Positions 10,581-27,908 of a DNA stretch of 64,000 nucleotides are shown piece by piece. Source of the DNA: Salegentibacter tibetensis (lineage in GTDB: Bacteria > Bacteroidota > Bacteroidia > Flavobacteriales > Flavobacteriaceae); contig NZ_JAIQZA010000002.1 of the NCBI RefSeq assembly GCF_020164485.1, positions 124,001-188,000 on the forward strand. The letters are read 5' to 3'. Position numbers and translations under genes: made by a program. Every line of letters starts with the position of its first letter. The stretch's first letter is position 1. The notes beneath the pieces are model-generated. The model was not told the origin of the DNA and ran no database searches. It worked only from the letters and a program-made list of their open reading frames with translations.

Positions 10581-10654
10581 GGCCCCGTGGCGCAACTGAA
10601 TAGCGCATCAGATTTCGGCTCTGAGGGTTGCAGGTTTGAATCCTGCCGGGGTCA
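10581..10654 (+). tRNA. tRNA-Arg (anticodon TCG)
   Basis: A full cloverleaf is visible: acceptor stem GGCCCCG pairing with CGGGGTC, anticodon stem TCAGA/TCTGA around the loop TTTCGGC (anticodon TCG at loop positions 34-36), and T arm GCAGG/CCTGC around TTTGAAT. CCA is not encoded. Its 3' 15 bases (10639-10653) are repeated at 10810-10824 and 14896-14910. Confidence 0.95.
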
Positions 10655-10664
10655 CTTAAAACAG

Positions 10665-10693
10665 AAAGTCTACACGGGAGTGTAGACTTTTTT
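10665..10693 (+). terminator. Terminator of tRNA-Arg
   Basis: An 11-bp perfect stem (AAAGTCTACAC, GGGA loop, complement) followed by six T bases, 11 bp after the tRNA. Confidence 0.85.
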
Positions 10694-10824
10694 ATTTTCC
10701 GGAAAAGCTGAGCTTGCTCAACGCTTTGTAGGGAAATAAAAAAGTAAGCTGCCCGGATGGCAGGATGACTTTCTATTTTCATGCGGGAGCCCAAAGGAAA
10801 AACGAAGTTAATCCTGCCGGGGTC
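10690..10824. repeat. 135-bp direct repeat, copy A (putative att-flank)
   Basis: This stretch is about 96% identical, without gaps, to 14776-14910. Both copies end in the 15-nt sequence AATCCTGCCGGGGTC, which is the 3' end of the tRNA-Arg gene. The layout (tRNA, right-end copy A, cargo, right-end copy B) is what repeated site-specific integration at a tRNA gene leaves behind. Confidence 0.85.
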
Positions 10825-10846
10825 ATAACATGTCGAGAGAAGTAGG

Positions 10847-10882
10847 GCGCAACCACTTGTATTTAAAGAGGTTGCGCTTTTT
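10847..10882 (+). terminator. Terminator-like hairpin after repeat copy A
   Basis: Stem GCGCAACC with its complement GGTTGCGC around a 15-base loop, followed by five T bases. No gene is seen immediately upstream other than the tRNA-end repeat. Confidence 0.6.
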
Positions 10883-11496
10883 CTTTGGGGTTAATTCTGC
10901 TTTTTTAGTTCACATATAGTCCACAATTAATTTTTTTAGCTTTTTTCTGGGATCAGGCCTAAAGGGGATCAAGTCTAATTGTTGTGTTTATGCAAAAATT
11001 GTAGGTAATCTGTACAAAAAGAATTCTACATTTTTCACTCCTCTAGACTGACTTCTAACGGTTTTTATTTGGATCAAACCTAAATATTGCAAAATGATCA
11101 ATACGGGAAGAATTTAGTGGGCAACACATAGTTAATCTTAATTTTTTACTATAAAATTTTAATTATTTCTCAATTTTGAGAATGATCTCTGATTGATTTC
11201 TGTAAATACAATTATTCCTTCTCTTTCCTATTTCAAAGCTTTCTCCAGAGTATTATTCGAAACTAACAGGATGTATTCCCTATCAGAGGAGGTATAAATA
11301 CCGTTAATTATTATGTAAAGTTCATTGGGCTTATCGTACAACAAACAGTTAAAATCAAGCCAATAGGGGAATTCCCTCATTTCATCCCCTTGTGATTGAT
11401 ATTATCTTTAGAATGTCAAAAAAATACTTGAATTGATATCAAACGTAGGAATTACAATTAACCATTATAAATATTAATAACTAAATTTTATTAACA
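10883..11496. other. AT-rich spacer inside the putative island
   Basis: No supported gene. The stretch is AT-rich, lacks long frames on either strand and shows no clear repeat. It includes the leader of the lipoprotein gene that follows. Confidence 0.5.
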
Positions 11497-13017
11497 ATGA
11501 GAAATTTTAAATTAAAATTGATGTATTTGGCAGCGTTTGCCTTAATTTTTACCTCCTGTAGTAAGGATGAAAACACCGTGAACAACGATCAGGAAAGTGT
11601 TACGCTTACATTCGGAACTGCTCTCCAGGATTTCAGTAGAGCTATGACGAACAAAGAACATGCAGGAGCTGATGTAGGTGAATGTATTGACGGAAACCCT
11701 GCTTTTGCACAAATCACTATTGAACATGGAGATAATAATACAGAAGTAACGGTTGTAGTACCTATATTAGAGGATACCAACGGATATTCTACTGCTTATG
11801 ATGAAGATCTGGAAATTCCGGTAGCTTCAGGCGAAACACATGTTTCTGTTACTCTTATGGACTTTGTGGTTTGGACGGATGATGACAATGACGGGGAACC
11901 GGATAATGTTTTATGGGTCGCTCCTAAAGTTGGAAGTGAGTATGCCCATTTCGTTGCAAATCCTTTAGGTGGAGATGCCAGTACCTGGAATTTAAGGGCG
12001 GGATCAAAAACCTATCTTGATGTGGAAGTGCTATGTGTTGATGACAGAGATGTAAATCTATATGGATATCAATTCTTTGATATTGAAGCAACTGAAGCTA
12101 TCGAGTTCTGTATATTTGGAAACTACTGTGACGAAGACGGAAGACACTATCCCGCAATGTACAGTGTGAATGTATGGTCTTTTGAGAATGGAGAAAAAGG
12201 CGATATGCTTTACGAAAACCTTCAAAATACAATGGATATTGAGGACGGAGATTATTATACTTCCCCGATATGTATGTTTTTACCTGACAGGGCCGGTATG
12301 GACGAGTATTATTTTGAAATTACCTTGCGTAATTCAGATGCCTACGAAGATGTAGAAGAAAGAATAATAAGAGCCGGAGTTATCAACGATGGTGATGTAA
12401 GAGATCTAATGGATGGAGATGACAACGTAGACTACTACCACTTTCAAGCAGGAAATTGCGGTGATATTGAGGATTCCCCAGCATTATTAAATTCAGATAT
12501 CTATTTTACTCCTCTTTCTTCTATGAATAATAGTGGAGTAAACGGTACAGCAACTCTTTTGTTAATGGAAAATTCATTAACCGTAAAAATAAGGGCTACT
12601 GGTTATGAGTCAAACATGATACATCCTCAGCATATCCATGGTTTTGAAGATGGCTCCAATGCGGTTTGTCCTCCTCCATTTGGATCACCGGAATTTATGG
12701 CCGCCGATACTAATAATGATGGCGTAATAGATCTTGTGGAAGGTATACCATTTTATGGTCCGGTTTTACTTAATCTTTTTGAGCCTGTAAATACTTGGCC
12801 TGTAGCCGATGCCAGTGGAAATGTAGATTATGAGCGAACCTTTGAACTTGGAGAAGAAGAGTTTGAGGAAGAAGGTGAGGTTATCAGTTTGGAAAACCTA
12901 TTGCCATTGGAAAATCGTACAATTGTTCTTCATGGGATGACTTTTGAAGGAGAATATGACGCTACACTTCCCGTAGCCTGTGGAGAAATCATTCAGGTTT
13001 ACAATGGACAGGATTAA
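11497..13017 (+). CDS. Lipoprotein of unknown function with CHRD/SOD-like C-terminal domain
   Basis: A 506-residue lipoprotein: signal peptide with lipobox LIFTSC, so Cys at about residue 21 is lipidated, followed by an acidic tail. The middle part is an acidic beta-rich region with scattered Cys that I do not recognise. The last 180 residues contain GVNGTATLLLMEN, an HPQHIHGFEDG metal-ligand-like stretch, an EF-hand-like DTNNDGVIDLVEG loop and a LHGMTF strand. This resembles CHRD or Cu/Zn-SOD-like folds, though only loosely. It is the only intact gene between the two 135-bp direct repeats and so is probably cargo of an integrated element. Function is unknown. Confidence 0.75.
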   Translation: MRNFKLKLMYLAAFALIFTSCSKDENTVNNDQESVTLTFGTALQDFSRAMTNKEHAGADVGECIDGNPAFAQITIEHGDNNTEVTVVVPILEDTNGYSTAYDEDLEIPVASGETHVSVTLMDFVVWTDDDNDGEPDNVLWVAPKVGSEYAHFVANPLGGDASTWNLRAGSKTYLDVEVLCVDDRDVNLYGYQFFDIEATEAIEFCIFGNYCDEDGRHYPAMYSVNVWSFENGEKGDMLYENLQNTMDIEDGDYYTSPICMFLPDRAGMDEYYFEITLRNSDAYEDVEERIIRAGVINDGDVRDLMDGDDNVDYYHFQAGNCGDIEDSPALLNSDIYFTPLSSMNNSGVNGTATLLLMENSLTVKIRATGYESNMIHPQHIHGFEDGSNAVCPPPFGSPEFMAADTNNDGVIDLVEGIPFYGPVLLNLFEPVNTWPVADASGNVDYERTFELGEEEFEEEGEVISLENLLPLENRTIVLHGMTFEGEYDATLPVACGEIIQVYNGQD

Positions 13018-13054
13018 TAGTTAAATAATATATAAAGATTAGGTACGAAGAACA

Positions 13055-14773
13055 AGCTGTCTCATTAATTTGAGGCAGTTTTTTTGTTTTATAGCTGTAT
13101 TGGATTGCATTTTTACTGGGATTTTCGTATTTTTAAGTACTGATAATCACATAAATGAGCCATAAATTTAAGGATTACAACCAGCAACAAAATTGGCTAT
13201 TACCACCCTCCATTGAAGAATTGATTCCCTAAGACCATCCGGTTAGGATCGTCAATGGAGTAATTGAGCATTTGGATCTCCAGCCATTGATAAAAGCCTA
13301 TAGTCAAGACGGTCAACCCAGTTATCACCCTAAGATGATGTTGAAGGTGATGGTCTATGCTTATATGGATAATACCTATTCCAGTCGGAAGATTGAGAAG
13401 GCCATGCGTGAGAACATCAATTTCATGTGGCTTTCAAATAAACAGGTAGCCGATCATAATACCATAGCTCGCTTTAGGAGTAAAAAACTCAAAGATGTAT
13501 TTTAAGCAGGTAGTTTTGTTGCTTGCCCAGGAAGGCTTGGTTACTTTAAAGCAAGTGTATACCGATGGGACTAAGATCGAATCTGTGGCCGGACGATACA
13601 CTTTTGTCTGGGGTAACGCTATAAAGACCCGCAAAGAGAAAATGATGCAGCAACTTGAAGAAATGTGGGAGTATGCCCAGAGCATTGCTGATGAAGAAGA
13701 CCAGGATCCTACTCCTCCGGATTTTAAAAAAGTCGATAAAGAGAAGGTGGAGAAAACGGCTCAAAAGATTAATAAAATACTCAAAGGGAATGACAAGGCC
13801 AGTTCCAAGGCAAAAGCTAAAGCCCGTTACATTGTAAAGAACTTTGCTGCTAACCTGGAGAAGTATGAACAACAGAAAGAAGCTCTTGGTAATCGAAACA
13901 GCTATAGCAAGACCGATCCGGATGCAACCTTTATGCGCATGAAAGAGGATCATATGAAAAACGGGCAACTCAAGCCCGGTTATAATGTACAGATAAGCTC
14001 TGAAGACCAGTTTATTGTTAACTACACTTTGCATCAGGACACCAATGACATTCATACCTTAAAACCCCACCTGGAGCGTTATGAATATCTATACCAGAAT
14101 GCGCCTGAATCCCTTACTGCCGATGCTGGTTATGGAAGCCAGGAAAATTTTGAATTGTTATCCAATAAAGGGATCCATGCATATGTAAAGTTCAACACCT
14201 TCGATAAAGAACAGAATGTTGCGGGGAAGAAAAGAAAGAAAACTCCTTTCCACAGGGACACCCTTCATTATAATGAGAAGGAAGACCATTATGTATGTCC
14301 CATGGGACAGCGGATGGATAAAATATCTGAGAATACCAAAGCCACAAAATCCGGTTACAAGCAAACCTATAGCAAGTATAGAGCACAAAACTGCATGGGC
14401 TGTCCAATAAGAGGCGCCTGTTTTAAAGGGAAAAGCAATCGCATTGTCGAGCGCAATCATATCCTGGAGCAATACACAAAAAGCCAGGGAAGCCCTATTA
14501 TCTGAAATAGGGGAAATAAATCGAAGAAAACGGACAGCTGATGTGGAACCGGTCTTTGCACATATCAAATACAACAGAAATTTTAAAAGATTTACTCACC
14601 GATGGCTCGATAAAGTAGAATTAGAGTTCGGATTATACGCTCTGGCCCATAACATTAGAAAGAAGAGTGCTTAGAAACACTCATCTATATATTTTCTATC
14701 AAAAAAATCCAATGTCTAGTTGAAAAAATCTATCTAATAAAAAAACCGCCTCATTTTGGTAAATGAGACAGCT
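13055..14773 (+). mobile_element. Decayed IS1182-family insertion sequence
   Basis: About 1.72 kb bounded by imperfect inverted repeats of roughly 30 bp: 13055-13085 (begins AGCTGTCTCATTAATTTGAG) and the complement of 14739-14773 (begins AGCTGTCTCATTTACCAAAA). The transposase between them is IS1182-like. No target-site duplication is visible at the edges. The right end stops two bases before direct repeat copy B. Confidence 0.85.
13155..14674 (+). pseudogene. IS1182-type transposase with a stop and two frameshifts
   Basis: Translation from ATG 13155 gives MSHKFKDYNQQQNWLLPP, then an in-frame TAA at 13230-13232 interrupts the conserved HPVRIVNGVIEHL block. A second break near 13504 follows LKDVF at a run of four T bases; one extra T explains the switch to KQVVLLLAQEG. 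A third break near 14475 lies in a run of A bases before KAREALLSEIG. The remaining sequence holds the typical PSYHPKMMLKVMVYAY start, the TADAGYGSQENF catalytic region, the CMGCPIRGACF zinc-like cysteines and the VEPVFAHIKYNRNFKRF end. All parts are present, so the gene decayed by point changes rather than truncation. It is not expected to be active. Confidence 0.88.
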
Positions 14774-14775
14774 CC

Positions 14776-14910
14776 TTTTATTTTCCGGAAAAGCTGAGCT
14801 TGCTCAGCGATTTGTAGGGAAATAAAAAAGTAAGCTGCCCGGAGGGCGGGGTGACTTTCTATTTTCATGCGGGAGCCCAAAGGAAAAACGAAGTTAATCC
14901 TGCCGGGGTC
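14776..14910. repeat. 135-bp direct repeat, copy B (putative attR flank)
   Basis: Second copy of the 10690-10824 repeat, ending in the tRNA-Arg 3' sequence AATCCTGCCGGGGTC at 14896-14910. It follows the IS right end by two bases and is followed by a weak terminator-like hairpin at 14935-14967. Confidence 0.85.
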
Positions 14911-15163
14911 TTATACATTGTTATCCCAACAACTAAAACCCTTAAGCAATCATGGGGTTTTATTTTTAGCAAACCGTGGATCTTACCGTAGCCTACGTTT
15001 AATCGGTACTCCAGGGTTATATTGTTTTCCGGCTATAGTATTAAGACTGCTTGTTGGAAGAAAATGAAATTACAATGGGAAGATTTTTTCATTTGAAATT
15101 CACGGAGAAAAAAAAAATTCTTACATTATGATTTTTATTAGAAGAATGAATGACACCCCAGCT

Positions 15164-15190
15164 TATCTTTGTGGTAAATATCACAAAGAT
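15164..15190 (+). promoter_or_regulatory. Promoter with overlapping palindromic operator, moa operon
   Basis: TATCTTTG at 15164-15171 fits the Bacteroidota -7 element TAnnTTTG. It is built into a perfect 9-bp inverted repeat, ATCTTTGTG, 8-base spacer, CACAAAGAT (15165-15190). The inner TGTGG-N6-TCACA half-sites resemble a Crp/Fnr-family site. Such a position would suit a repressor, or a regulator acting close to the start of transcription, for the molybdenum-cofactor operon. Inference only. The rest of 14968-15270 holds no gene. Confidence 0.5.
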
Positions 15191-15206
15191 GAGGATGAAA
15201 TGAAAT

Positions 15207-15227
15207 ACCCCCTGATTTAATGGGGGT
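15207..15227 (+). promoter_or_regulatory. Leader hairpin before moaA
   Basis: ACCCCC, a 9-base loop and GGGGGT form a G/C-rich stem 44 bp before the moaA start codon. It could influence mRNA stability or translation. It does not resemble the known Moco riboswitch as far as can be seen. Confidence 0.35.
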
Positions 15228-15270
15228 GTTGAGCATTTGAAGAGGAAACCAGATACTAAACCAGGAGTGA

Positions 15271-16251
15271 ATGTTAGTAGACAAACATAAAAGAATACAC
15301 GATTATTTAAGGATTTCGCTTACAGATAGCTGCAATTTTCGTTGCCAGTACTGTATGCCCGATGAGGACATACAATGCTTACCCAATAAACATCTCATGC
15401 AGGTTGATGAGATTGAAAAAATTGCAAGCATTTTCGTGAATCTGGGAGTTAATAAAATTCGGCTTACAGGGGGGGAACCCCTTGTTAGAAAGGAGTTCAG
15501 GGAGATTTTATCCCGACTCTCAAAATTTCCGGTAGAAATAAGTCTTACCACCAATGCTGTTCTTGTTCATAAATTTATTGACGACTTTAAAGCCGCTGGG
15601 ATACGCTCAGTGAATGTTAGCCTAGACACCCTGAACGCAGAAACTTTTAAAAAGATCACCAAAAGAGATCAGTTTGATTTAGTATGGCGAAATATACAAT
15701 TGCTGCTGGAAGAAGGCTTTAGGGTAAAGATTAACGCAGTAGCTATTGAGGGTGTGATTGAAAAGGAAATCCTTGATTTTGTGGAAATCACAAGGGATTT
15801 GCCCTTACATGTTCGCATGATAGAATTTATGCCTTTTGAAGGAAATCACTGGAACAGCAAGAAAGTAATTACAGCGACGCAAATGCTGCAATGGGCGGAA
15901 GCGGAATATGATATGGTGAAATTAAAGGATAAACCTCATGCTACCGCCAAAAAATACAAAGCCATTGGCCACGAAGGTACCTTTGCCTTTATCACGACTA
16001 TGACAGAACATTTTTGTGGCGATTGCAACCGTATGCGGATCACAGCCGATGGAAAGATGAAGAATTGTCTTTTTGGGAAAGATGAGATGGATTTACTGGG
16101 GACCCTAAGAAAGGGCGAAGATATAGAACCGCTTATCAGGTTATCAGTTATACGCAAACACGCAGTGATGGGAGGGCAGTTTAATAAATCGTATAAAGAT
16201 ACTAGTACCTCTCAACTTGAGAACCGAAGCATGATTAGGATTGGCGGATGA
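15271..16251 (+). CDS. moaA: GTP 3',8-cyclase MoaA
   Basis: A 326-residue radical SAM enzyme that starts molybdenum-cofactor synthesis by converting GTP to 3',8-cyclo-GTP. The N-terminal cluster motif is Cys21, Cys25, Cys28 (SCNFRCQYC), followed by TGGEPL near residue 66. The second iron-sulphur cluster uses Cys249, Cys252 and Cys266 (HFCGDCNRMR to KNCLFG). The chain ends in the conserved double glycine (RIGG). Length is normal. It is the first gene of a seven-gene Moco operon and overlaps moeA by four bases (ATGA), which indicates coupled translation. A promoter-operator palindrome lies about 80 bp upstream. Confidence 0.95.
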   Translation: MLVDKHKRIHDYLRISLTDSCNFRCQYCMPDEDIQCLPNKHLMQVDEIEKIASIFVNLGVNKIRLTGGEPLVRKEFREILSRLSKFPVEISLTTNAVLVHKFIDDFKAAGIRSVNVSLDTLNAETFKKITKRDQFDLVWRNIQLLLEEGFRVKINAVAIEGVIEKEILDFVEITRDLPLHVRMIEFMPFEGNHWNSKKVITATQMLQWAEAEYDMVKLKDKPHATAKKYKAIGHEGTFAFITTMTEHFCGDCNRMRITADGKMKNCLFGKDEMDLLGTLRKGEDIEPLIRLSVIRKHAVMGGQFNKSYKDTSTSQLENRSMIRIGG

Positions 16252-17426
16252 TTTCAGTAGAACAGGCTAAAAAGATTCTTTCTGAAAACTCAGAAAGGGG
16301 ACAAATTAAAGAGATCGCTCTTGGGGAATGTCTTGGATTGGTGCTTTCAGAGAATATATATTCTCCCATTGATGTTCCCTCCTTTGATAATTCAGCTATG
16401 GACGGCTATGCAATGAATTTTGAAGGGCATAATGAGGAGTGGGAAGTTTCAAATGTGATCCAGGCAGGAGATACTTCAGAAACCATTATTTCCCCGGGTA
16501 AAGCAGCCCGTATCTTTACAGGAGCAAAGATTCCGAAGGGGGCCAATACCGTAATTCCGCAAGAGCTAATAGAAGTAATCAAAGAAGGCCAAATAGCCTA
16601 CAGTGGAGATAAGATATCTATTGGGAGTAATATAAGGCTAAAAGGATCCCAGTCTGAAAAGCATACACAAATACTTGAAAAAGGCCAGGTCCTGGGAGCC
16701 GGACAAATAGGCCTCCTCGCTTCGGTTGGGGTAGCAAAGGTAAAAGTTTGGACTACGCCCCGGGTAGGTTATATAGTTACGGGTAATGAGTTGAAAGAAC
16801 CGGGTACCCCTCTAAGAGAAGGTGAGATATATAATTCCAACGGGCCTATGCTTGAAGCTCTTTTAAAAGAGAATGGAGTTAAGCAAATCCAGGGATATAA
16901 AGCCTCTGATGACAAAAACAGCCTTCAAAAAATTATTGATCGCGCTCTTTCTGAAAATGATATTCTCTTGCTTAGTGGCGGAATTTCTGTTGGGGATTAC
17001 GATTTTGTTGAGGATTGTCTGAAAACAGCAAAGGTACGGGAGCTTTTCTATAAAATAAAACAGCGTCCGGGAAAACCATTGTTCGTCGGAAAAAAAGAGA
17101 AAAAGATGGTTTTTGCCCTACCTGGAAACCCGGCTTCGGTTCACAGTTGTTTTATACAATACGTTAGACCTTCCATAAGATTCTGGTTGGGTAAAAACGC
17201 AGTATGGGACGCCGACCACCAGTTAACACTTGCCGAAGACGTGGAGAAAAAACCGGGTTTAACTTATTTTATGAAAGGAAAAAAAACAGGGGGAGAAGTG
17301 TCACTTTTAAAAGGACAACAATCCTTTAATTTACAGGCCTTTGCCACTGCAGAATGCCTGCTCGAATTACCCGGGGAAAATGAGGTGGTAACTGCGGGAA
17401 CCATAGTAAACGTTTACGATCTTTAA
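16248..17426 (+). CDS. moeA: Molybdopterin molybdotransferase MoeA
   Basis: A 392-residue cytosolic enzyme that inserts molybdate into adenylylated molybdopterin. Recognisable blocks are PSFDNSAMDGYA near residue 45, the GDTSE...GKAARIFTGAKIPKGAN segment in domain II (given in part), the MoCF-biosynthesis fold with LLSGGISVGDYDFV near residue 245, and ALPGNPASVHSCF near residue 290. Length is typical. It starts inside the moaA stop codon. A 240-bp non-coding gap with two hairpins follows before mobA, so the downstream genes may be partly uncoupled. Confidence 0.95.
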   Translation: MISVEQAKKILSENSERGQIKEIALGECLGLVLSENIYSPIDVPSFDNSAMDGYAMNFEGHNEEWEVSNVIQAGDTSETIISPGKAARIFTGAKIPKGANTVIPQELIEVIKEGQIAYSGDKISIGSNIRLKGSQSEKHTQILEKGQVLGAGQIGLLASVGVAKVKVWTTPRVGYIVTGNELKEPGTPLREGEIYNSNGPMLEALLKENGVKQIQGYKASDDKNSLQKIIDRALSENDILLLSGGISVGDYDFVEDCLKTAKVRELFYKIKQRPGKPLFVGKKEKKMVFALPGNPASVHSCFIQYVRPSIRFWLGKNAVWDADHQLTLAEDVEKKPGLTYFMKGKKTGGEVSLLKGQQSFNLQAFATAECLLELPGENEVVTAGTIVNVYDL

Positions 17427-17664
17427 GTGTCTTTAGCTTTTAGGACAGTACGGGATTTAATTTAATTCTGATTATGGTCCCTTCGTTTTAATCCCTCATT
17501 GAGGGTTTAATTCCCCCGAGGCCTGCCCGAATCATTCAGGCGGGCTTGCCTCGAAATTATAAAATAGTTTTCCAATTTATACCTCATGGGCATGACCTGA
17601 GGTTTCTGATTATAAGGCTTTTGAAACAGCGGTTAACTCTCATTTTGACGGGATCACCTATTAA
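17427..17664. other. Spacer with hairpins and possible gene remnant
   Basis: No intact gene. A strong stem-loop lies at 17518-17552 (outer GAGGC...GCCTC, inner GCCCG...CGGGC) and a smaller CCTCA...TGAGG hairpin at 17582-17603. Just before mobA, codons 17596-17664 read PEVSDYKAFETAVNSHFDG and end in TAA, which looks like the tail of a lost protein; I do not recognise it. The interruption is odd inside an otherwise tight operon. Confidence 0.4.
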
Positions 17665-17676
17665 ATAAAACTCTTT

Positions 17677-18261
17677 CTGAAAAATTATCCAAACATAGAA
17701 GCCTTTGTACTCGCAGGAGGGAAAAGCAGTCGTATGGGGCGCGATAAAGGCCTGGTACGATTAAACGAACAGCCCATGATTTTACATGTGCTTAAGGAAT
17801 TGCAAATACTGGGAATATCCACTAAAATTATTGCGAACAATCCTGCCTATAAAAAGTTTATGCTTCCCGTTTATAGTGATGTCATTCCTAAAAAAGGCCC
17901 TATGGGTGGTTTGCTTACCGCTATGGAAAATACAAAGGCAAAAATGGTTATCCTCCTTGCCTGCGATATGCCTTTTGTTACCGCCGGAGCAATAGAATTG
18001 CTCCTGGAAAATGCAAATAATAGGCAGATAATCGCCTCTGTGTATAATCAAAAAATAAATCCCCTGTTTAGTATCTATCCTGTAATTTTAAAGGAAAATA
18101 TTAAGAAAAGCATAGCTGTAAGAGAACTAAAAATGACCGATTTCATTCTGAAAAATGAACACGTTTTGTTACCTTTCCAGAACGAGAGTTCGGGTAAGAT
18201 ATTCAAAAATATCAATACAGAAAAAGAACGAAAAGAAGCAGAAAAGAAATGGAAAAATTAA
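17677..18261 (+). CDS. mobA: Molybdenum cofactor guanylyltransferase MobA, start codon unclear
   Basis: The enzyme joins GMP to Moco. The nucleotide-binding loop LAGGKSSRMGRDKG is complete, but its first half lies upstream of the first ATG (17734), so that ATG cannot be the true start. Between the in-frame TAA at 17662-17664 and the loop there is no ATG, GTG or TTG. The best guess is CTG at 17677 or ATA at 17665; the listed start uses CTG. Further motifs are VYSDVIPKKGPMGGL and LLACDMPFV. Its 3' end overlaps moaD by 13 bases. Either an unusual start is used or a small mutation has removed the original start. Confidence 0.8.
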   Translation: MKNYPNIEAFVLAGGKSSRMGRDKGLVRLNEQPMILHVLKELQILGISTKIIANNPAYKKFMLPVYSDVIPKKGPMGGLLTAMENTKAKMVILLACDMPFVTAGAIELLLENANNRQIIASVYNQKINPLFSIYPVILKENIKKSIAVRELKMTDFILKNEHVLLPFQNESSGKIFKNINTEKERKEAEKKWKN

Positions 18262-18485
18262 CCGTAAAAGCTTTTGGTATAATCGCTGAAAAATTGCCGG
18301 AGCAGGAATTTTATTTTCCACAGCAGCAGGATACCGAAGAATTATTAAACAGTCTCTATGATGAATATCCGGATCTAAGGAATATGGACTTTTCCCTGGC
18401 GGTGAACCAACAGCTTATACAGCAAAATACTCGCCTGCGAGGGAACGAGGAAATTGCCCTATTACCACCATTTTCAGGGGGATGA
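18249..18485 (+). CDS. moaD: Molybdopterin synthase small subunit MoaD
   Basis: A 78-residue ubiquitin-fold sulphur carrier ending in the diagnostic PPFSGG tail; the terminal glycine is adenylylated by the MoeB-like partner and then turned into a thiocarboxylate. It begins inside the mobA 3' end and its stop overlaps the next gene by four bases (ATGA), so translation is probably coupled to its activating enzyme. Length is normal. Confidence 0.93.
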   Translation: MEKLTVKAFGIIAEKLPEQEFYFPQQQDTEELLNSLYDEYPDLRNMDFSLAVNQQLIQQNTRLRGNEEIALLPPFSGG

Positions 18486-19582
18486 ATAGATTTTCACGCC
18501 AAACCATATTGCCCGGTTTTGGGATAGAAGGACAGCAAAAACTCTCCGACGCCCGCGTTCTTGTGGTAGGAGCCGGGGGATTGGGTTGTCCTGCTCTCCT
18601 GCACCTTGCGGCTGCCGGAGTGGGTACTATTGGAATAGTTGATGGGGATACTATAAGTGAGTCTAACCTTAATAGACAAACGCTTTTTGGACACCAACAT
18701 ACAGGTAAGCCTAAATCCTCTACTGCAGCCGAAATTCTTAAGGAAAAATATCCGGATTTAAGTTTTGAAGTTTTTTCTGATTATCTGAATACGAATAATG
18801 CCCTGGAGGTAATCTCTTTGTTTGATGTAGTGGTAGACGGGACAGATAATTTTGGCACCCGTTATCTTATTAATGATGCCTGTGTACTACTTAAAAAACC
18901 CCTGGTAATGGGCGCTATTTATCAATATGAAGGGCAGGTGATGGCTTTTAATTTTGGGCAGATTGCATTGAACTATCGGGATATTTATCCCAATCCGCCC
19001 AGACGGGATCAAATTCCCAATTGTGCTGAGACCGGGGTTTTAGGTGTTCTTCCGGGTATTATAGGAACGCTTCAAGCCGCGGAGGTAATAAAAATACTTT
19101 CGGGAGTAGGAAAAGTACTTGCAGAAAAAATACTTTTTTTCAATCTTAAGAATTCATCATTTTACGAAGTGGCCATACAGGCTAATCCTAGCGGCAGGAA
19201 TAATCTTCCTGATTCTGAAGAAGATTTTCGTAGCAGGGATTACAACATCAACTGCGGACTCGCAGAGAGCATAAATTGGGAAAAGGCTATGGATTGGACG
19301 CTAAATATGAATGATAGCCTACTGGTAGATATCAGGGAAACCGGAGAAAAGCCATTACTGGAAAAGGAATTTTTAACCAGGATCCCAATGAAAAAAATAA
19401 AGGAGAACGCTGCAGCTCTCTCAGCTTATGAGAATATTCTTCTGGTTTGTGCGTCGGGGCAACGCAGCCGGCAACTGGCACACGAACTGAAACAGCAATT
19501 TCCCGAAAAGAAAATATTTTCGGTAGAAGGAGGTATTTTGCATCCTTCTTCACCTTTAAATTTGAATAAAAATGACACGTAA
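18482..19582 (+). CDS. moeB: MoeB/ThiF-type adenylyltransferase with C-terminal rhodanese domain
   Basis: A 366-residue two-domain enzyme. Residues 1-245 form the E1-like domain with GAGGLG at 30-35, the DGDTISESNLNRQ nucleotide block and IPNCAETGVLG. The first zinc CxxC pair seen in E. coli MoeB is absent (the matching stretch reads NYRDIYPNPP), so structural zinc is probably lost. Residues 270-366 form a rhodanese domain with active Cys323 in LLVCASGQRSR, which would deliver sulphur. The enzyme activates the C-terminus of MoaD, encoded directly upstream, and may sulphurate it in one polypeptide, as in eukaryotic MOCS3. It overlaps moaE by 11 bases. Confidence 0.88.
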   Translation: MNRFSRQTILPGFGIEGQQKLSDARVLVVGAGGLGCPALLHLAAAGVGTIGIVDGDTISESNLNRQTLFGHQHTGKPKSSTAAEILKEKYPDLSFEVFSDYLNTNNALEVISLFDVVVDGTDNFGTRYLINDACVLLKKPLVMGAIYQYEGQVMAFNFGQIALNYRDIYPNPPRRDQIPNCAETGVLGVLPGIIGTLQAAEVIKILSGVGKVLAEKILFFNLKNSSFYEVAIQANPSGRNNLPDSEEDFRSRDYNINCGLAESINWEKAMDWTLNMNDSLLVDIRETGEKPLLEKEFLTRIPMKKIKENAAALSAYENILLVCASGQRSRQLAHELKQQFPEKKIFSVEGGILHPSSPLNLNKNDT

Positions 19583-20012
19583 ACCTAAAAATATATTTGT
19601 AGAAGGACCTATTTCTTCAGAAAAGATAGCCCAATCTATTCAAAATCATAGCGCCAAAACCAATATAGGAGCTCATTCTATTTTTTTGGGGCAGGTGCGG
19701 GCCGATGAAAAGGAGGGTAGCGTAGTGAGCGCCATAGAATATACAGCTTATGAAGAGATGGCCCTTCTAAAGGCATTTGAAATTCGGGAAGCCATATTTG
19801 AAAAATATGAGCTTACCTGTATGCATATTTATCACAGCCTGGGGGAAGTGAAAACCGGGGAAATATGCCTGTTTGTATTTACATCCTCCAAACACAGGGA
19901 AATGGCAATAGATGCTTGTGAAGAACTGGTAGAAAGGATTAAAAATGAGCTACCGGTTTGGGGAAAGGAACTTCTTGAGAACCAGGGAGAAAAATGGAAA
20001 GTGAATACCTAG
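19572..20012 (+). CDS. moaE: Molybdopterin synthase catalytic subunit MoaE
   Basis: A 146-residue cytosolic protein that, with MoaD thiocarboxylate, converts cyclic pyranopterin monophosphate to molybdopterin. Family features are GAHSIFLGQVRAD near residue 37, the EYTAYEEMA strand, the YHSLGEVKTGEICLFV core and the C-terminal ERIKNELPVWGKELL helix. Length is normal. It starts within the end of the moeB-like gene and is followed 17 bp later by the moaC-mogA fusion. Confidence 0.93.
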   Translation: MTRKPKNIFVEGPISSEKIAQSIQNHSAKTNIGAHSIFLGQVRADEKEGSVVSAIEYTAYEEMALLKAFEIREAIFEKYELTCMHIYHSLGEVKTGEICLFVFTSSKHREMAIDACEELVERIKNELPVWGKELLENQGEKWKVNT

Positions 20013-20029
20013 ATATTGAATAGATAAAA

Positions 20030-20950
20030 ATGGTAAATATTACTCATAAAAGCAATACGCTTCGAAAGGCAATAGCGCAAGCTGTGGTTAAGGTAAGCAG
20101 CCTTGATACGATTAGGGCGGTGGAGGAGAAAAAAGTTCCCAAAGGGGATGTGTTTGAAATGGCGAAAACAGCAGGACTTTTTGCGGCAAAGCGCACCAGT
20201 GAAATGATTCCCGATTGCCATCCCTTACCGGTTGAATATACAAATATTACCTACAATATTGAAGACCTCGAGGTTTATATTAATGTTGAGGTACATACTA
20301 TTTATAAAACAGGGGTTGAGGTGGAAGCCATGCATGCAGCATCAGTAGTTGCCCTCACTATGTACGATATGCTAAAGCCTATAGATAAAGGAATAAGTAT
20401 TGAAAAAATTAAGCTTCTGGAGAAAAAAGGCGGAAAAACCGATTACCGCAAGGTAGTTGAGGAAAATCAAATTTCAGCAAGTGTCATTGTCTGTTCCGAT
20501 TCAATTTCAGCGGGGGAGAAGCAGGATAAGGCAGGAAAGGTTATCATGGAAAAGCTAAAAGCTTATCAGGTAATAGTAGAAGATTACCGGGTTATTCCAG
20601 ATGAGAAAGAAACAATTCAAAGCCTTGTAAAAGAAAAATGCCATAAAAAAGTAGATCTGGTGATTTTAACCGGGGGTACCGGCCTATCTCCCCGGGACGT
20701 AACCCCGGAAGCTATTCAACCATTACTAGAACGCCCTATCCCGGGAATTGAAGAGGCCATAAGAGCCTACGGACAGGATAGAACACCTTATTCTATGCTT
20801 TCGCGTTCGGTTTCGGGATTAATAGGAAACACCCTTGTACTTGCTCTGCCAGGCTCTACGAAGGGTGCTGAAGAATCTATGGATGCAGTTTTTCCCGCAA
20901 TCATGCATATTTTTAGAGTGATGGCAGCTTTTAAGCACGACCGGGACTAA
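20030..20950 (+). CDS. moaCB: Bifunctional MoaC-MogA/MoaB fusion
   Basis: A 306-residue fusion. Residues 1-145 are cyclic pyranopterin monophosphate synthase (MoaC), with the MIPDCHPLP block near 62 and GVEVEAMHAA near 100. Residues 150-306 are a MoaB/MogA-type molybdopterin adenylyltransferase with ILTGGTGLSPRDVTPEA, YSMLSRSVSGLIGNT and ALPGSTKGAEESM. Such a fusion is known in several bacteria. Together the operon then covers every common Moco step from GTP to the guanine dinucleotide form. It is the last gene of the operon; no molybdate transporter or molybdoenzyme follows within the window. Confidence 0.93.
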   Translation: MVNITHKSNTLRKAIAQAVVKVSSLDTIRAVEEKKVPKGDVFEMAKTAGLFAAKRTSEMIPDCHPLPVEYTNITYNIEDLEVYINVEVHTIYKTGVEVEAMHAASVVALTMYDMLKPIDKGISIEKIKLLEKKGGKTDYRKVVEENQISASVIVCSDSISAGEKQDKAGKVIMEKLKAYQVIVEDYRVIPDEKETIQSLVKEKCHKKVDLVILTGGTGLSPRDVTPEAIQPLLERPIPGIEEAIRAYGQDRTPYSMLSRSVSGLIGNTLVLALPGSTKGAEESMDAVFPAIMHIFRVMAAFKHDRD

Positions 20951-23082: not shown

Positions 23083-24030
23083 ATGGAAACAATATTTAAA
23101 AATTATTTCGTATGTATCATTTTTTTGGTTTCTCTGCTGTTTTCCGGTACAAATTCTTGGGCCCAGGAAGCAAGAGTACAGAAAACAATAGCATATGAAC
23201 AGGATACTCTATCTGATGTAGTAGAAATAACTGCAACAGATTACGCCTTTGATGCACCTAAGGAAATAGAATCCGGGTGGACAACTTTCGAGTACAAAAA
23301 TGAAGGGAATGAACCACATTTCCTGTTCCTGACTAAGATACCGGAAGGTTTAACTTTTGATGCATATGCGGGGGATGCACTTGTGCCATTTAACGCAGTC
23401 TGGTATGCGATGAGGGATGAAGGAATAAGCACTGAGGAAGTTATGGAGAGACTGGGAGCACAAATGCCCGAATGGTTCTGGACTCTGGAGTTTGCAGGAG
23501 GGGCCGGTCTTATATCTCCCGGCAGGATCACAAATGTGACCCTGAACCTGGAACCCGGTATATACGCTATGGAGTGTTATATGAAAACCGAAGATGGAGA
23601 ATTACACTCCATGGAAGGAATGCTGCGAGAGCTCAAGGTAACCGATACGCCATCAGAGGCAGCTGCCCCAGAGGCAGATATCGCCATCACGCTTTCAAAT
23701 TTTGAAATGGCAATCGATGGCAATCTCTCTCCCGGTAATCATACCATCTCCGTTCATGTGGCAGAGAATCCGGAAGAAGGATATGGCCATAATGTACATG
23801 TTGCTCGCCTTACAGAAGACACTGACGCACAAGAGGTGGCTGAATGGATGAACTGGTTTGATGTTAATGGCCTGCAAAACCCCAGTCCGGTAATTTTTAT
23901 TGGAGGTATGCAACTGCTTCCTGAAGGTGGTACCGGCTACTTTAGTTTGGATCTGGAACCTGGCCAATATCTATTCTATTCCGAATACACCGGTTATTTA
24001 GGAGTTGCAAAGGAAGTAACTGTGGAATAG
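23083..24030 (+). CDS. Exported two-domain cupredoxin-like protein, paralogue 1
   Basis: A 315-residue protein with a signal peptide ending SWAQ near residue 28. Two beta-rich domains of about 130 residues follow. Domain 1 keeps a full type-1 copper set: His in GNEPHFLFL, then Cys-x9-His-x4-Met in ECYMKTEDGELHSMEGM. The spacing is close to the Cys-x8-His-x4-Met of copper nitrite reductase. Domain 2 keeps GHNVHVARL but has no Cys, so it probably does not bind type-1 copper. It is the first of three tandem paralogues (then 24208 and 25252), a truncated fourth and a multicopper oxidase. Likely a periplasmic copper or electron-transfer protein; I know of no name for this family. Confidence 0.75.
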   Translation: METIFKNYFVCIIFLVSLLFSGTNSWAQEARVQKTIAYEQDTLSDVVEITATDYAFDAPKEIESGWTTFEYKNEGNEPHFLFLTKIPEGLTFDAYAGDALVPFNAVWYAMRDEGISTEEVMERLGAQMPEWFWTLEFAGGAGLISPGRITNVTLNLEPGIYAMECYMKTEDGELHSMEGMLRELKVTDTPSEAAAPEADIAITLSNFEMAIDGNLSPGNHTISVHVAENPEEGYGHNVHVARLTEDTDAQEVAEWMNWFDVNGLQNPSPVIFIGGMQLLPEGGTGYFSLDLEPGQYLFYSEYTGYLGVAKEVTVE

Positions 24031-24207
24031 AAGAGAGTTTAGAAGGTTTTATATCATTCCATTATGGTTGTTTAATAGGAATTTAAGCTGTGACAAAAGT
24101 CATTGATACAAAGCCTTTTTATTAGTGACTTGAATTTCTAAATATATTATAGTACGATAACTTATTGTTTAATAAGGAGATAATTAAATAACTAAGTACA
24201 GGATTAT

Positions 24208-25146
24208 ATGAAAAGTATAAAAATGATAAGAAGTATAATTCCAATTGTTACTATCCTTCTAATATTATGCTACCCTCTATTACAAGCACAGAATTCAACA
24301 ACCGTTAGGGCAAATGGCGAAAGTGAAGTAGTAGTAATAACTGCAACAGATTACGCCTTTGAAGCCCCGGATGAAATAGAATCCGGGTGGAGGAATATCC
24401 GATTCAGCAATGAAGGTGAGGATCCCCATCTTATTCTTTTTAGTCGTTTACCTGAGGGCAAAACAGTAGATGATTATTTAACTGAGGCCGGTCCCCCATT
24501 CAACAAGGCGTGGTATCAACTTAGGGATGGAAAAATTACTCCCCAGGAGATAACTGGTATATTAGGTAAGACTGTTCCTGAATGGTTTTGGGGCGTAGAA
24601 AGAATGGGTGGAGCAGGTCTTGTAATGCGGGGTGGAGTAGCAGAGACTACTATCAACCTGCCTCCGGGTAATTATGCTATGGAATGTTATATTAAAACGG
24701 AAGATGGGGAAATCCACTTTATGGAAGGAATGGCCAGACCAATTCGGGTACTCGATAAAAATTCCGGTGGAACTGCGCCAAAGGCTGACTTGCTAATCAA
24801 AGTTTCCAATACTGAGCTGGAAGTTCATGGAGATCTTACTGCCGGAAAGCGAGTAGTGGAGGTGCAAATAACCGAAAAACCTGATAAGGGTTTAGGTCAT
24901 GATGTTCATGTAGCACGATTAGGTGCCGGCGCGAACCTGCAGGAAGTGGTACAATGGATGAACTGGTATTCTCCGAACGGCATGCGTGAACCCACTCCCG
25001 ATCACGCAACTTTTATTGGAGGGATGCATTTCCTGCCATTAAACAGCCCGGGATATTTTACGATAGATCTTTCGCCGGGTCGGTATCTGTTCGTTTCGGG
25101 GGCTGCGGCGGATAAGGGTATATTTCAGGAAATTAGGGTGAAATAG
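24208..25146 (+). CDS. Exported two-domain cupredoxin-like protein, paralogue 2
   Basis: A 312-residue paralogue of the preceding gene, sharing the stretch ITATDYAF and ESGW at the start of domain 1. The signal peptide ends LLQAQ near residue 28. The copper ligands are conserved: His in GEDPHLILF and Cys-x9-His-x4-Met in ECYIKTEDGEIHFMEGM. Domain 2 has LGHDVHVARL and FIGGMHFLPL but no Cys. Its closeness to paralogue 1 at the DNA level in the first domain suggests recent duplication. The 177-bp gap upstream contains no gene. It is followed 105 bp later by the likely start of paralogue 3. Confidence 0.75.
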   Translation: MKSIKMIRSIIPIVTILLILCYPLLQAQNSTTVRANGESEVVVITATDYAFEAPDEIESGWRNIRFSNEGEDPHLILFSRLPEGKTVDDYLTEAGPPFNKAWYQLRDGKITPQEITGILGKTVPEWFWGVERMGGAGLVMRGGVAETTINLPPGNYAMECYIKTEDGEIHFMEGMARPIRVLDKNSGGTAPKADLLIKVSNTELEVHGDLTAGKRVVEVQITEKPDKGLGHDVHVARLGAGANLQEVVQWMNWYSPNGMREPTPDHATFIGGMHFLPLNSPGYFTIDLSPGRYLFVSGAAADKGIFQEIRVK

Positions 25147-25251
25147 TCATAGTAAATCATTATGAAGCATTCCTCATTTTCAGTAATAATCTCAGGAACA
25201 GCAATAAGGAATTCAAAAATAGTACTAACAATTAAAAAAAAAGAAGAAAAG

Positions 25252-26181
25252 ATGTCGAATTTATTTAAAGGATTAATGTTTAACATAACAACCATTATTA
25301 TGAGTTTAGTCTTTTTGATGTCCAGCCTGGTACACGGACAATCTCAGGAAACGGTCGTTCATGTGGAGGCTATTGATCACGCGTTTGATGTTGATGCACC
25401 CAATCAACTTCCATCCGGATGGGTTACATTTATTTTAAGTAACCAGATGGCCAGTGAAACGCATGAGATAAGTTTGGTAAAGCTTCCCGATGGAGTTACC
25501 CATGAAGATTATCTTACGGATTATATGATCGCCTGGGAAACCTTGTTACGTGAATATCAGGATGGGGTTTTAGAGCGCTCTGGAATTAGCGACAGAGGAA
25601 ATGAAATTTTGCCCGCCTGGTCCGACGGCCTCCGTTATTTAAATGCTCGCGGACTGGCATCTCCAGGAACAACTGCAGAAAGAACGGTTTACCTGGAACC
25701 GGGGGAATATCTGTTGATCTGTTGGCTGAAAACGGAGGAGGGAATTATCCATATAATGAAGGGAATGCACTGGGAGTTCACGGTCAGGGAAGATACTGCA
25801 GACAGCCCTGTACCAAATCCGGAATCACGAATTACCCTGCACGAAAAAGAAATTGAAATAGATTGGGCCCCAGTAACAGGAAAGCATGCCTTTGAAGTTG
25901 AATTAAACAAGAATGGGAATGGACGATCCTACCACAACAATCTGCACCTGGTGCGCCTGGAAGAGGAAACAGACCTAAATGAAGTAAATGAGTGGATGGA
26001 TTGGTATAAAATTGGAGGGTTGAAATCCCCTTCTCCTGTTGAATTTCTTGGCGGTATCGAAGTCGAGAGAGTGGCAGACAACGCATACTTTTCAGTGAAT
26101 ATAACAGAACCAGGGGATTATGCATGGATTGTTTTTGTATCTCAAGGCCAGGGTTTGTATAAAACATTTACTGTAGATTGA
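25252..26181 (+). CDS. Exported two-domain cupredoxin-like protein, paralogue 3
   Basis: The start at ATG 25252 gives a 309-residue protein, matching its sisters, with an A-rich leader and a signal peptide ending VHGQ. A longer frame from 25162 adds 30 residues that look like a decayed copy of the leader of the multicopper oxidase gene (both DNA stretches share TTTTCAGTAAT/TTTTAGTAAT followed by CTCAGGAA), so it is rejected. The protein is more diverged but keeps His in SETHEISLV and Cys-x9-His-x4-Met in ICWLKTEEGIIHIMKGM. Domain 2 has NNLHLVRLEEE and LGGIEVERV. Function is inferred as for the other two copies. Confidence 0.72.
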   Translation: MSNLFKGLMFNITTIIMSLVFLMSSLVHGQSQETVVHVEAIDHAFDVDAPNQLPSGWVTFILSNQMASETHEISLVKLPDGVTHEDYLTDYMIAWETLLREYQDGVLERSGISDRGNEILPAWSDGLRYLNARGLASPGTTAERTVYLEPGEYLLICWLKTEEGIIHIMKGMHWEFTVREDTADSPVPNPESRITLHEKEIEIDWAPVTGKHAFEVELNKNGNGRSYHNNLHLVRLEEETDLNEVNEWMDWYKIGGLKSPSPVEFLGGIEVERVADNAYFSVNITEPGDYAWIVFVSQGQGLYKTFTVD

Positions 26182-26242
26182 AGAAAACTGCCGTAACACA
26201 GTGGATGCTACATGCACAATGTGAATAAAGGGAATCGATTAG

Positions 26243-26425
26243 GTGTACCGGCTAAACAATAGCGGCCTGTGGCTACCCGCACCTGCCACTTTTCTCGGAG
26301 GTATGCATATCCTGCAGCTGGGTAAAACAGGTTATTTAACGGTGGATCTGGATCCGGGGCGATATCTCTTTGTTTCCGAGATGACCGGTTCCCGGGGTGT
26401 TTTGAAAGAAATAACAGTAAAATAG
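26243..26425 (+). pseudogene. Truncated fourth cupredoxin-like paralogue
   Basis: Only the last 50 codons survive, reading PAPATFLGGMHILQLGKTG and then DLDPGRYLFVSE to VLKEITVK. This matches the C-terminus of paralogue 2 (FIGGMHFLPL, DLSPGRYLFVSG). The rest of the gene is gone; the 60 bp before it show no recognisable frame. It is direct evidence of duplication and loss inside the array. Confidence 0.8.
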
Positions 26426-26439
26426 TTAAAATAAATTAT

Positions 26440-27908
26440 ATGAAGCAGATATTAATTTTAGTAATCTCAGGAATAGCAATATTAGTCACAATCGTTTTCA
26501 TCACAGCGGGAGGTGCTGAGTTGACTGTCTATGGGCAGGAAAAAGAACCTGAAAACCCTTCCACTATTGTTAGAAGTGGAAAGAAAATAGCCGGACATCC
26601 GGTGTTAAAAACATTTCTTCTGAACCGGGAATTGTGGAAGTGGAACTTTCTGCTTCCCCGGAGCGTCTTTCCCTGAAGCCCGGCAGCGAATCAGATGTTT
26701 TTGCTTATAATGGAACGGTTCCCGGGCCTATGCTGGAGGCATTTGAAGGCGATAGTATTATTGTTCATTTCACAAATAATCTTTCTGAGATGACTACTGT
26801 ACACTGGCACGGCCTGCATTTGCCTTTTATTATGGACGGCAGTCCGTTTCACCCAATCGCAGCCGGTGAATCCTTTACCTACACATTTAGATTGCATGAA
26901 GGCACAGCAGGTACTTACTGGTATCATCCACATCCTCATCACCGCACTGCCTGGCAGGTGGGGATGGGACTTTACGGGGGAATTATCGTGCGCGATCCAA
27001 ACGATCCCCTGCCAGGTTCCCTGACGGAACATCTCCTGATCCTGTCTGATAACCGGTTTGATGAAAATGGGCAGATTGAATTTGCAGAGGCGAATTCGCG
27101 GCAGAAGAAAATTGACGATATGAATGGCCGGGAAGGAAATGTTTTGTTTGTCAATGATGAAATCATGCCAAGCCTAACTATTCGAAGCGGGGAAGTGCAG
27201 CGATGGAGAATAGTCAATGCCTCCGGAGCCAGAACCTACAGGCTTGCATTAAAAGATCATACTTTTACACTTATTGGTAGCGATGGTGGTTTATTTGAAC
27301 ATCCGGAAGAGGTGGAAGAGATTCTATTAGGAAACGGGGAACGCGCAGAACTTCTTGTGCGGGCCACCGGGAAACCCGGAAGTGAAGCGGTACTGCAGGC
27401 ACTTCCTTACGATCGTTATATGCCAATGTTCAGACCTGAAGATTGGGATAAGACGCGGGAACTTTTGAAACTCAGTTACACTTCTGAACCAGCGGTTGAA
27501 GAACAATTTGTAGTGCCAAAAACCCTGCGTAAAATTCCAACATTAAAAATTGAAGATGCGACAGAGACCAGAATAATGCGTATGAGCAACGGAAAGATCA
27601 ACAGCAAAACTATGGACATGAAACGTATTGATGAAACCGCAGAACTGGGAGCGACCGAAATATGGGAGATTAGGAACCTGGTAGGAATGGATCATCCATT
27701 TCACCTACACGGTTTTCAGTTCCAGGTGATTGATCGTAACAATGTTCCGGTATCTCAACGGAAATGGGAGGATGTAGTAAATGTTCCCGGTTTTGAAAAG
27801 GCCCGCTTTATTGTGCGTTATGATAATTACAAAGGAAAATGGATGTATCACTGCCACATCCTGGATCATGAAGATCAGGGTATGATGGGGGTACTGGAGG
27901 TTAAGTGA
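26440..27908 (+). CDS. Multicopper oxidase with a frameshift near the N-terminus
   Basis: Start ATG 26440 gives a signal or anchor segment (ILILVISGIAILVTIVFI). At 26607-26611, a run of five A bases, the frame must slip back by one to continue as NISSEPGIVEVELSASPERL, the normal oxidase start. The remaining 430 residues are intact, with all four copper-ligand blocks: HWHGLHLP, WYHPHPHH, HPFHLHGF and YHCHILDHEDQGMMG. Total length would be about 489 residues, normal for a three-domain laccase-like enzyme (copper or metal oxidation, or phenol oxidation, in the periplasm). The slip may be a one-base deletion, a sequencing error or programmed frameshifting. Its place after the copper-protein array suggests that the proteins exchange electrons or copper. 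Confidence 0.85.

Follow-up and report, generated by a model that had tools for sequence, protein, structure and literature searches.

A tandem array of exported two-domain cupredoxins followed by a multicopper oxidase gene was examined in a 64,000-nt stretch of the Salegentibacter tibetensis genome (assembly GCF_020164485.1, contig NZ_JAIQZA010000002.1, positions 124,001 to 188,000; this whole stretch is referred to as the window). Sequence comparisons and a structure model give about an even chance that the cupredoxins are soluble type-1 copper proteins handing electrons to the adjacent oxidase. On comparison across genomes, the link to the oxidase is real and is limited to part of the cupredoxin family, and the recurrence of the pairing suggests that these cupredoxins work as partners of the oxidase.

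Predicted copper site and fold of the cupredoxins

The three intact cupredoxin genes are consecutive on the forward strand, at 23083–24030 (copy 1, 315 amino acids (aa)), 24208–25146 (copy 2, 312 aa) and 25252–26181 (copy 3, 309 aa), and their products carry signal sequences as judged by eye. An earlier sequence-only reading of this DNA had placed the three paralogues at these positions, and the upstream His and the Cys-x9-His-x4-Met motif that it described were found in each. These four residues (H74, C160, H170 and M175 in copy 2 numbering) are identical in 56 of 56 aligned family members, and all four are kept in 76 of 77 members of a second alignment, including all three window copies. In the lone exception, a protein of Deinococcus ficus, all four are gone together, suggesting that they form one site.

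The Cys and His are separated by 9 residues in 73 of the 77 members, by 8 in three and by 10 in one. PMC4059628 lists spacings of 7–8 in green nitrite reductases, 6 in AcoP and 2–4 in blue and red cupredoxins, and the Cys-x9-His loop is, from the aligned sequences, longer than these. The residue preceding the Cys is Glu in 62 members, Asp in six, His in one and another residue in eight; as it is mostly Glu, type-2 and type-3 copper ligands are missing at that position. The HCH that serves the trinuclear centre of two-domain laccases and multicopper oxidases is likewise not found, copies 1–3 reading ECY, ECY and ICW. Domain 2 had been described as always lacking Cys, which is true of all three window copies but does not extend to the whole family, in which this domain contains a Cys in 4 of the 56 members.

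The structure prediction proposed with the earlier reading was run on copy 2 (AlphaFold model m4264b210e045). Two cupredoxin folds are predicted, with the four residues placed as in type-1 sites, the Cys near the end of a strand of the beta-sandwich and the His and Met before the next strand, and there is a helical insertion at about residues 87–129. The top-ranked fold matches of domain 1 include the cupredoxin domains of EfeO and FtrB. Ligand conservation, sequence and profile comparison and the copy 2 model are all consistent with a type-1-like copper site in domain 1, as had been proposed.

Association with one oxidase lineage

The multicopper oxidase reported downstream of the array was found at 26440–27908 on the forward strand. 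Its leader begins at 26440 and its body (26634–27908) is in another frame, a frameshift that the sequence-only reading did not mention and that is seen by comparison with locus L010 of the metagenome-assembled genome Gillisia sp. LH_M85. All three Cu-oxidase Pfam domains score above their cut-offs in the body, and the four copper motifs (HWHG, HPHP, HPFHLHG and HCH) are present in the window body as well as in an alignment of 11 relatives. The best NCBIfam score of the body was to CueO (PRK10965 equivalog) at 252 bits, below the 525-bit cut-off.

The wider association was followed at 61 family loci, a subset of the search matches that was picked and not drawn at random, and an oxidase is present at 13 of them. 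Close oxidases, defined by at least 63% identity to the window oxidase, were found in 2 of 395 genomes of the phylum (E 1e-130) and 7 of the 92 genomes from family f24, with a partial one at a contig end (G526, locus L140). The 11 close-oxidase loci are those of the window, L010, G308 (two loci), G521, G511, G501, G525, G494, G507 (broken) and G526 (partial), and the G-numbered genomes among them bear five genus labels (g1, g222, g191, g270 and g183), so that at least five genera are represented. At 11 of 11, a family gene adjoins the oxidase or lies one gene away. At loci with a distant oxidase, none of 15 had a family gene in the flanks examined, which extended up to about 1.5 kb; G494 has one close and one distant oxidase.

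The pairing follows the phylogeny of the cupredoxins. In a tree of 77 sequences, clade A, which includes copies 1 and 2, has 18 rows (support 99/93), every one at an oxidase locus, and in clade B, which holds copy 3, 4 of 10 rows are at oxidase loci. The oxidase-locus label changes 5 times on the tree, against a mean of 22.5 when shuffled. In L083, L134 and L138, the cupredoxin gene overlaps or abuts the oxidase gene, provided that the assigned starts are correct. Two Deinococcus plasmids, p_2 (D7000) and pDFI1, each have a family gene immediately next to an oxidase of a different type, with a C-terminal amicyanin-like domain, and this pairing apparently arose independently of the main one. 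A third Deinococcus plasmid has two BTAD regulators in place of the oxidase.

Members predicted to be soluble or lipid-anchored

Leaders were searched for a lipobox using a strict pattern and then a relaxed one. Under the relaxed pattern, lipoprotein-like leaders are present in 46 of the 48 Bacteroidota members away from an oxidase (34 of 48 under the strict one), as against none of the 18 clade A rows and none of 4 clade B array rows; the other six clade B rows are counted among the 48, and one clade A row (L136:743) begins without a leader and is uninformative. A lipobox was also found in all three of three further array copies near BTAD-like genes, and in none of four plasmid rows. The oxidase-adjacent copies are therefore mostly, not exclusively, predicted to be soluble.

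Family identity and distribution

No window copy scored above any cut-off in searches of Pfam and NCBIfam. For Cupredoxin_1 (PF13473), copies 1 and 3 reached 14.2 and 14.3 bits against a gathering cut-off of 27, and copy 2 was not listed; 25 of 77 family members match this profile at E<=0.1, the best at 1.9e-7. Copies 1–3 gave no match to the Cu-oxidase Pfam families and none at E<=1 to TIGR02376 (copper nitrite reductase). A solved relative of copy 2 was sought with phmmer; the matches were to designed propellers, spanned 27 residues (best E 3.1e-05) and were taken as chance. Among the papers listed by the literature searches made, none was on the family, its long loop, or the module that it forms with this oxidase lineage. 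The kinds of fold and enzyme involved are already known.

Matches to the cupredoxin family were found in 20 of the 100 genomes sampled from the same taxonomic family, 23 of 395 genomes of the phylum, 31 of 92 genomes of family f24, 2 of 15 genomes of the genus and five plasmid records from Deinococcus and Gemmatirosa. A scan of genome contigs found one relative, and contig C67 of the S. tibetensis genome carries two further family copies. G308 has seven family members across its two loci. At L138 of G494 (10639–15289), four more family genes are divergent from the oxidase, and one of them, at 10639–11481, is without the motif. Another, at 12802–14025, whose product is outside the 56- and 77-member alignments, has towards its C-terminus a second Cys-x9-His motif, which may give two copper sites.

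Origin and decay of the array

Copies 1, 2 and 3 share 83%, 89% and 80% identity with their Gillisia orthologues, and in the tree each is orthologous to a separate L010 gene; types 3 and 4 also have orthologues in family f24. Within the window, copies 1 and 3 are only 45–49% and 29% identical to copy 2. These values and the separate old branches rule out recent tandem duplication, and the suggestion in the sequence-only reading of recent selection on copy number is not upheld.

Between the two taxonomic families, the oxidases share 79% identity, and the sequences flanking the module in the window are unlike those of the Gillisia locus. The G+C content of the module is 43.3%, where window stretches of the same size average 39.5% (standard deviation 1.4). 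The module was probably acquired horizontally, and acquisition as a block would be the simplest reading. However, synonymous divergence (dS) from Gillisia along the block (23083–27905 against L010) is 0.29 for copy 1, 0.26 for copy 2, 0.53 for copy 3 and 0.75 for the oxidase, which counts against a single history, and because of this variation parts of the array may have been exchanged separately.

The sequence-only reading also inferred decay, and this is corroborated on three counts. The truncated fourth copy is a C-terminal remnant of 60 aa (26243–26425, forward strand) of a gene that is intact in L010 (10059–10976), the oxidase frame is broken here and intact in L010, and an older oxidase relic is present. 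The ratio of nonsynonymous to synonymous divergence (dN/dS) from Gillisia is 0.35, 0.21 and 0.20 for copies 1, 2 and 3, 0.09 for the oxidase and 0.56 for the copy 4 remnant (58 codons). On these values, the oxidase frameshift is either recent or an assembly error. The relic, a 54-base remnant of the start of a former multicopper oxidase gene, lies between copies 2 and 3 in both genomes (25153–25206, forward strand, in the window; 8940–8995 in L010), with local alignment scores of 44 in the window and 57 in L010 against maxima of 31 and 28 in 300 shuffles. It indicates that the array probably once contained a second oxidase gene. The start of copy 3 was placed at 25252, where the Gillisia orthologue begins at the same residue; a longer open reading frame from 25162 would begin inside the relic.

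Neighbouring genes

For members away from an oxidase, no shared neighbour was found; 6 of 43 loci have one gene cluster in common, which we take to be ribB-lptF-lolA-ftsK on the basis of the protein starts. A Pfam look-up of ten neighbours returned unrelated functions or no match, and for a seemingly recurrent upstream gene (~190 aa) the six looked up have no common Pfam family. BTAD-type regulators recur near family genes, identified by Pfam in L009 and L148 and by similar protein starts in L083, L135, L136 and L140. SnoaL/NTF2-like genes were identified by Pfam near family genes in L082, L083 and L150, and protein starts in L135 (5538) and L139 (9175) resemble them by eye. L135 3980–4510 has no Pfam match, and a 742-aa gene at L135 9888–12116 (G511), ~2 kb downstream of the oxidase, resembles catalase-peroxidase by eye.

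Just upstream of the array (window 15271–20950) are molybdenum cofactor genes, namely a MoeB-like gene (18482) and a MoaC/MoaB gene (20030); genes at 15271, 16248, 17734 and 19572 resemble further ones by eye. Among the 100 genomes of the same taxonomic family, 25 have NirK, 20 have this family and one has both (Fisher p 0.021, uncorrected for kinship), so that an accessory role to NirK is unsupported.

Possible roles of the module

In the reading we favour, the exported two-domain proteins encoded beside the three-domain multicopper oxidase, itself exported, would be soluble and would each hold a single type-1 copper centre, located in domain 1. The cupredoxins would act as dedicated one-electron carriers, reduced by a substrate or a further carrier and reoxidised by the oxidase, which would pass four electrons to oxygen. 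Domain 2, which is predicted to retain the cupredoxin fold and to have lost the copper site, would probably serve in docking or stability. Electron transfer is favoured because of the electron-transfer type of the ligand set, the clade-specific pairing and the age and separateness of the paralogues. Several observations weigh against it. The recurrent tie to a multicopper oxidase holds at the close-oxidase loci, but an oxidase is absent from 48 of the 61 family loci examined, both Gemmatirosa loci included. The D. ficus member (pDFI1, L149 5857–6711) adjoins an oxidase despite the loss of its ligands. Copies 1–3 remain open beside a frameshifted oxidase in S. tibetensis, and may for this reason have a role without it. 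The structure prediction covers copy 2 alone, and the profile-profile comparison returned probabilities of just 21–22%.

The main rival, which we regard as rather unlikely, is that the cupredoxins hold Cu(I)/Cu(II) in the periplasm as donors or buffers, loading the exported oxidase or shielding other sites from copper as part of copper tolerance. The window and L010 oxidase leaders have no twin-arginine motif by eye, which would place metallation outside the cytoplasm, and copy number varies, as in G308. Precedents are CutF-CutO (PMC8456105, PMC9973294), in which CutF, exported and related to copper, is encoded together with a periplasmic oxidase, and CopI (PMC7558416), a periplasmic cupredoxin of copper defence; however, CutF is a CxxxC protein and translational copper sensor, and CopI is plastocyanin-like and found with copA. 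No copper exporter or sensor was recognised among the few neighbours looked up, and the conserved ligand set is unlike exchangeable Met/Cys copper sites. A His-Cys-His-Met set is typical of electron-transfer sites.

It is improbable that the oxidase is an iron or manganese oxidase with the cupredoxins as accessory metal-binding proteins, as in EfeO/FtrB iron uptake. The domain 1 fold matches and a weak EfeO profile similarity point this way, but none of the subset of neighbours looked up or annotated was recognised as an iron permease. Marginally less probable still is that the cupredoxins merely travelled with the oxidase on the same mobile block. Among 15 genomes of the genus the array is in the window genome only, one other having a single 35% match, and the G+C content, the differing flanks and the copies left open beside a broken oxidase would all fit such a passenger. 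Against this, the tie is kept at every close-oxidase locus in different contexts, and the Deinococcus pairing and the gene overlaps also argue for a functional connection.

A broader reading, of the family's history, is more tentative. The family may be an unnamed two-domain type-1 family of at least three phyla with a long Cys-His loop and perhaps a green copper centre, the last because the loop is longer than those given for known cupredoxins. One branch would have lost its lipid anchor, turned soluble and joined one oxidase lineage as a mobile periplasmic redox module, with the anciently diverged paralogues providing the oxidase with several separate inlets for electrons.

Relationship to known copper proteins

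NirK, and AniA in particular, resembles the family in having two cupredoxin domains, type-1 ligands in domain 1 and a long Cys-His loop, and the Cys, His and Met align. However, the spacing is 7–8 in NirK and 9 in the family, and NirK has a type-2 His before the Cys where Glu is found in most family members. AcoP, the green cupredoxin of Acidithiobacillus, differs in being a single domain with a spacing of 6 and a cytochrome oxidase, not a multicopper oxidase, as partner. EfeO, FtrB and Cupredoxin_1 proteins are set apart from the window copies by the low Cupredoxin_1 scores of the latter (14 bits, well under the cut-off of 27) and by the helical insertion of the copy 2 model. The window oxidase shares its three Cu-oxidase domains and four copper motifs with CueO and CopA, but it scores below the CueO cut-off and, when its sequence was read, no Met-rich insert was noticed.

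The usual electron donors of multicopper oxidases are small molecules or metal ions. If the electron-transfer reading is true, a module in which the oxidase has an array of protein partners to itself would allow oxidase chemistry fed by proteins to be tested. The family would also provide a natural setting in which to test how the colour and potential of type-1 copper sites depend on loop length, and would allow anchored and soluble forms of one protein to be compared.
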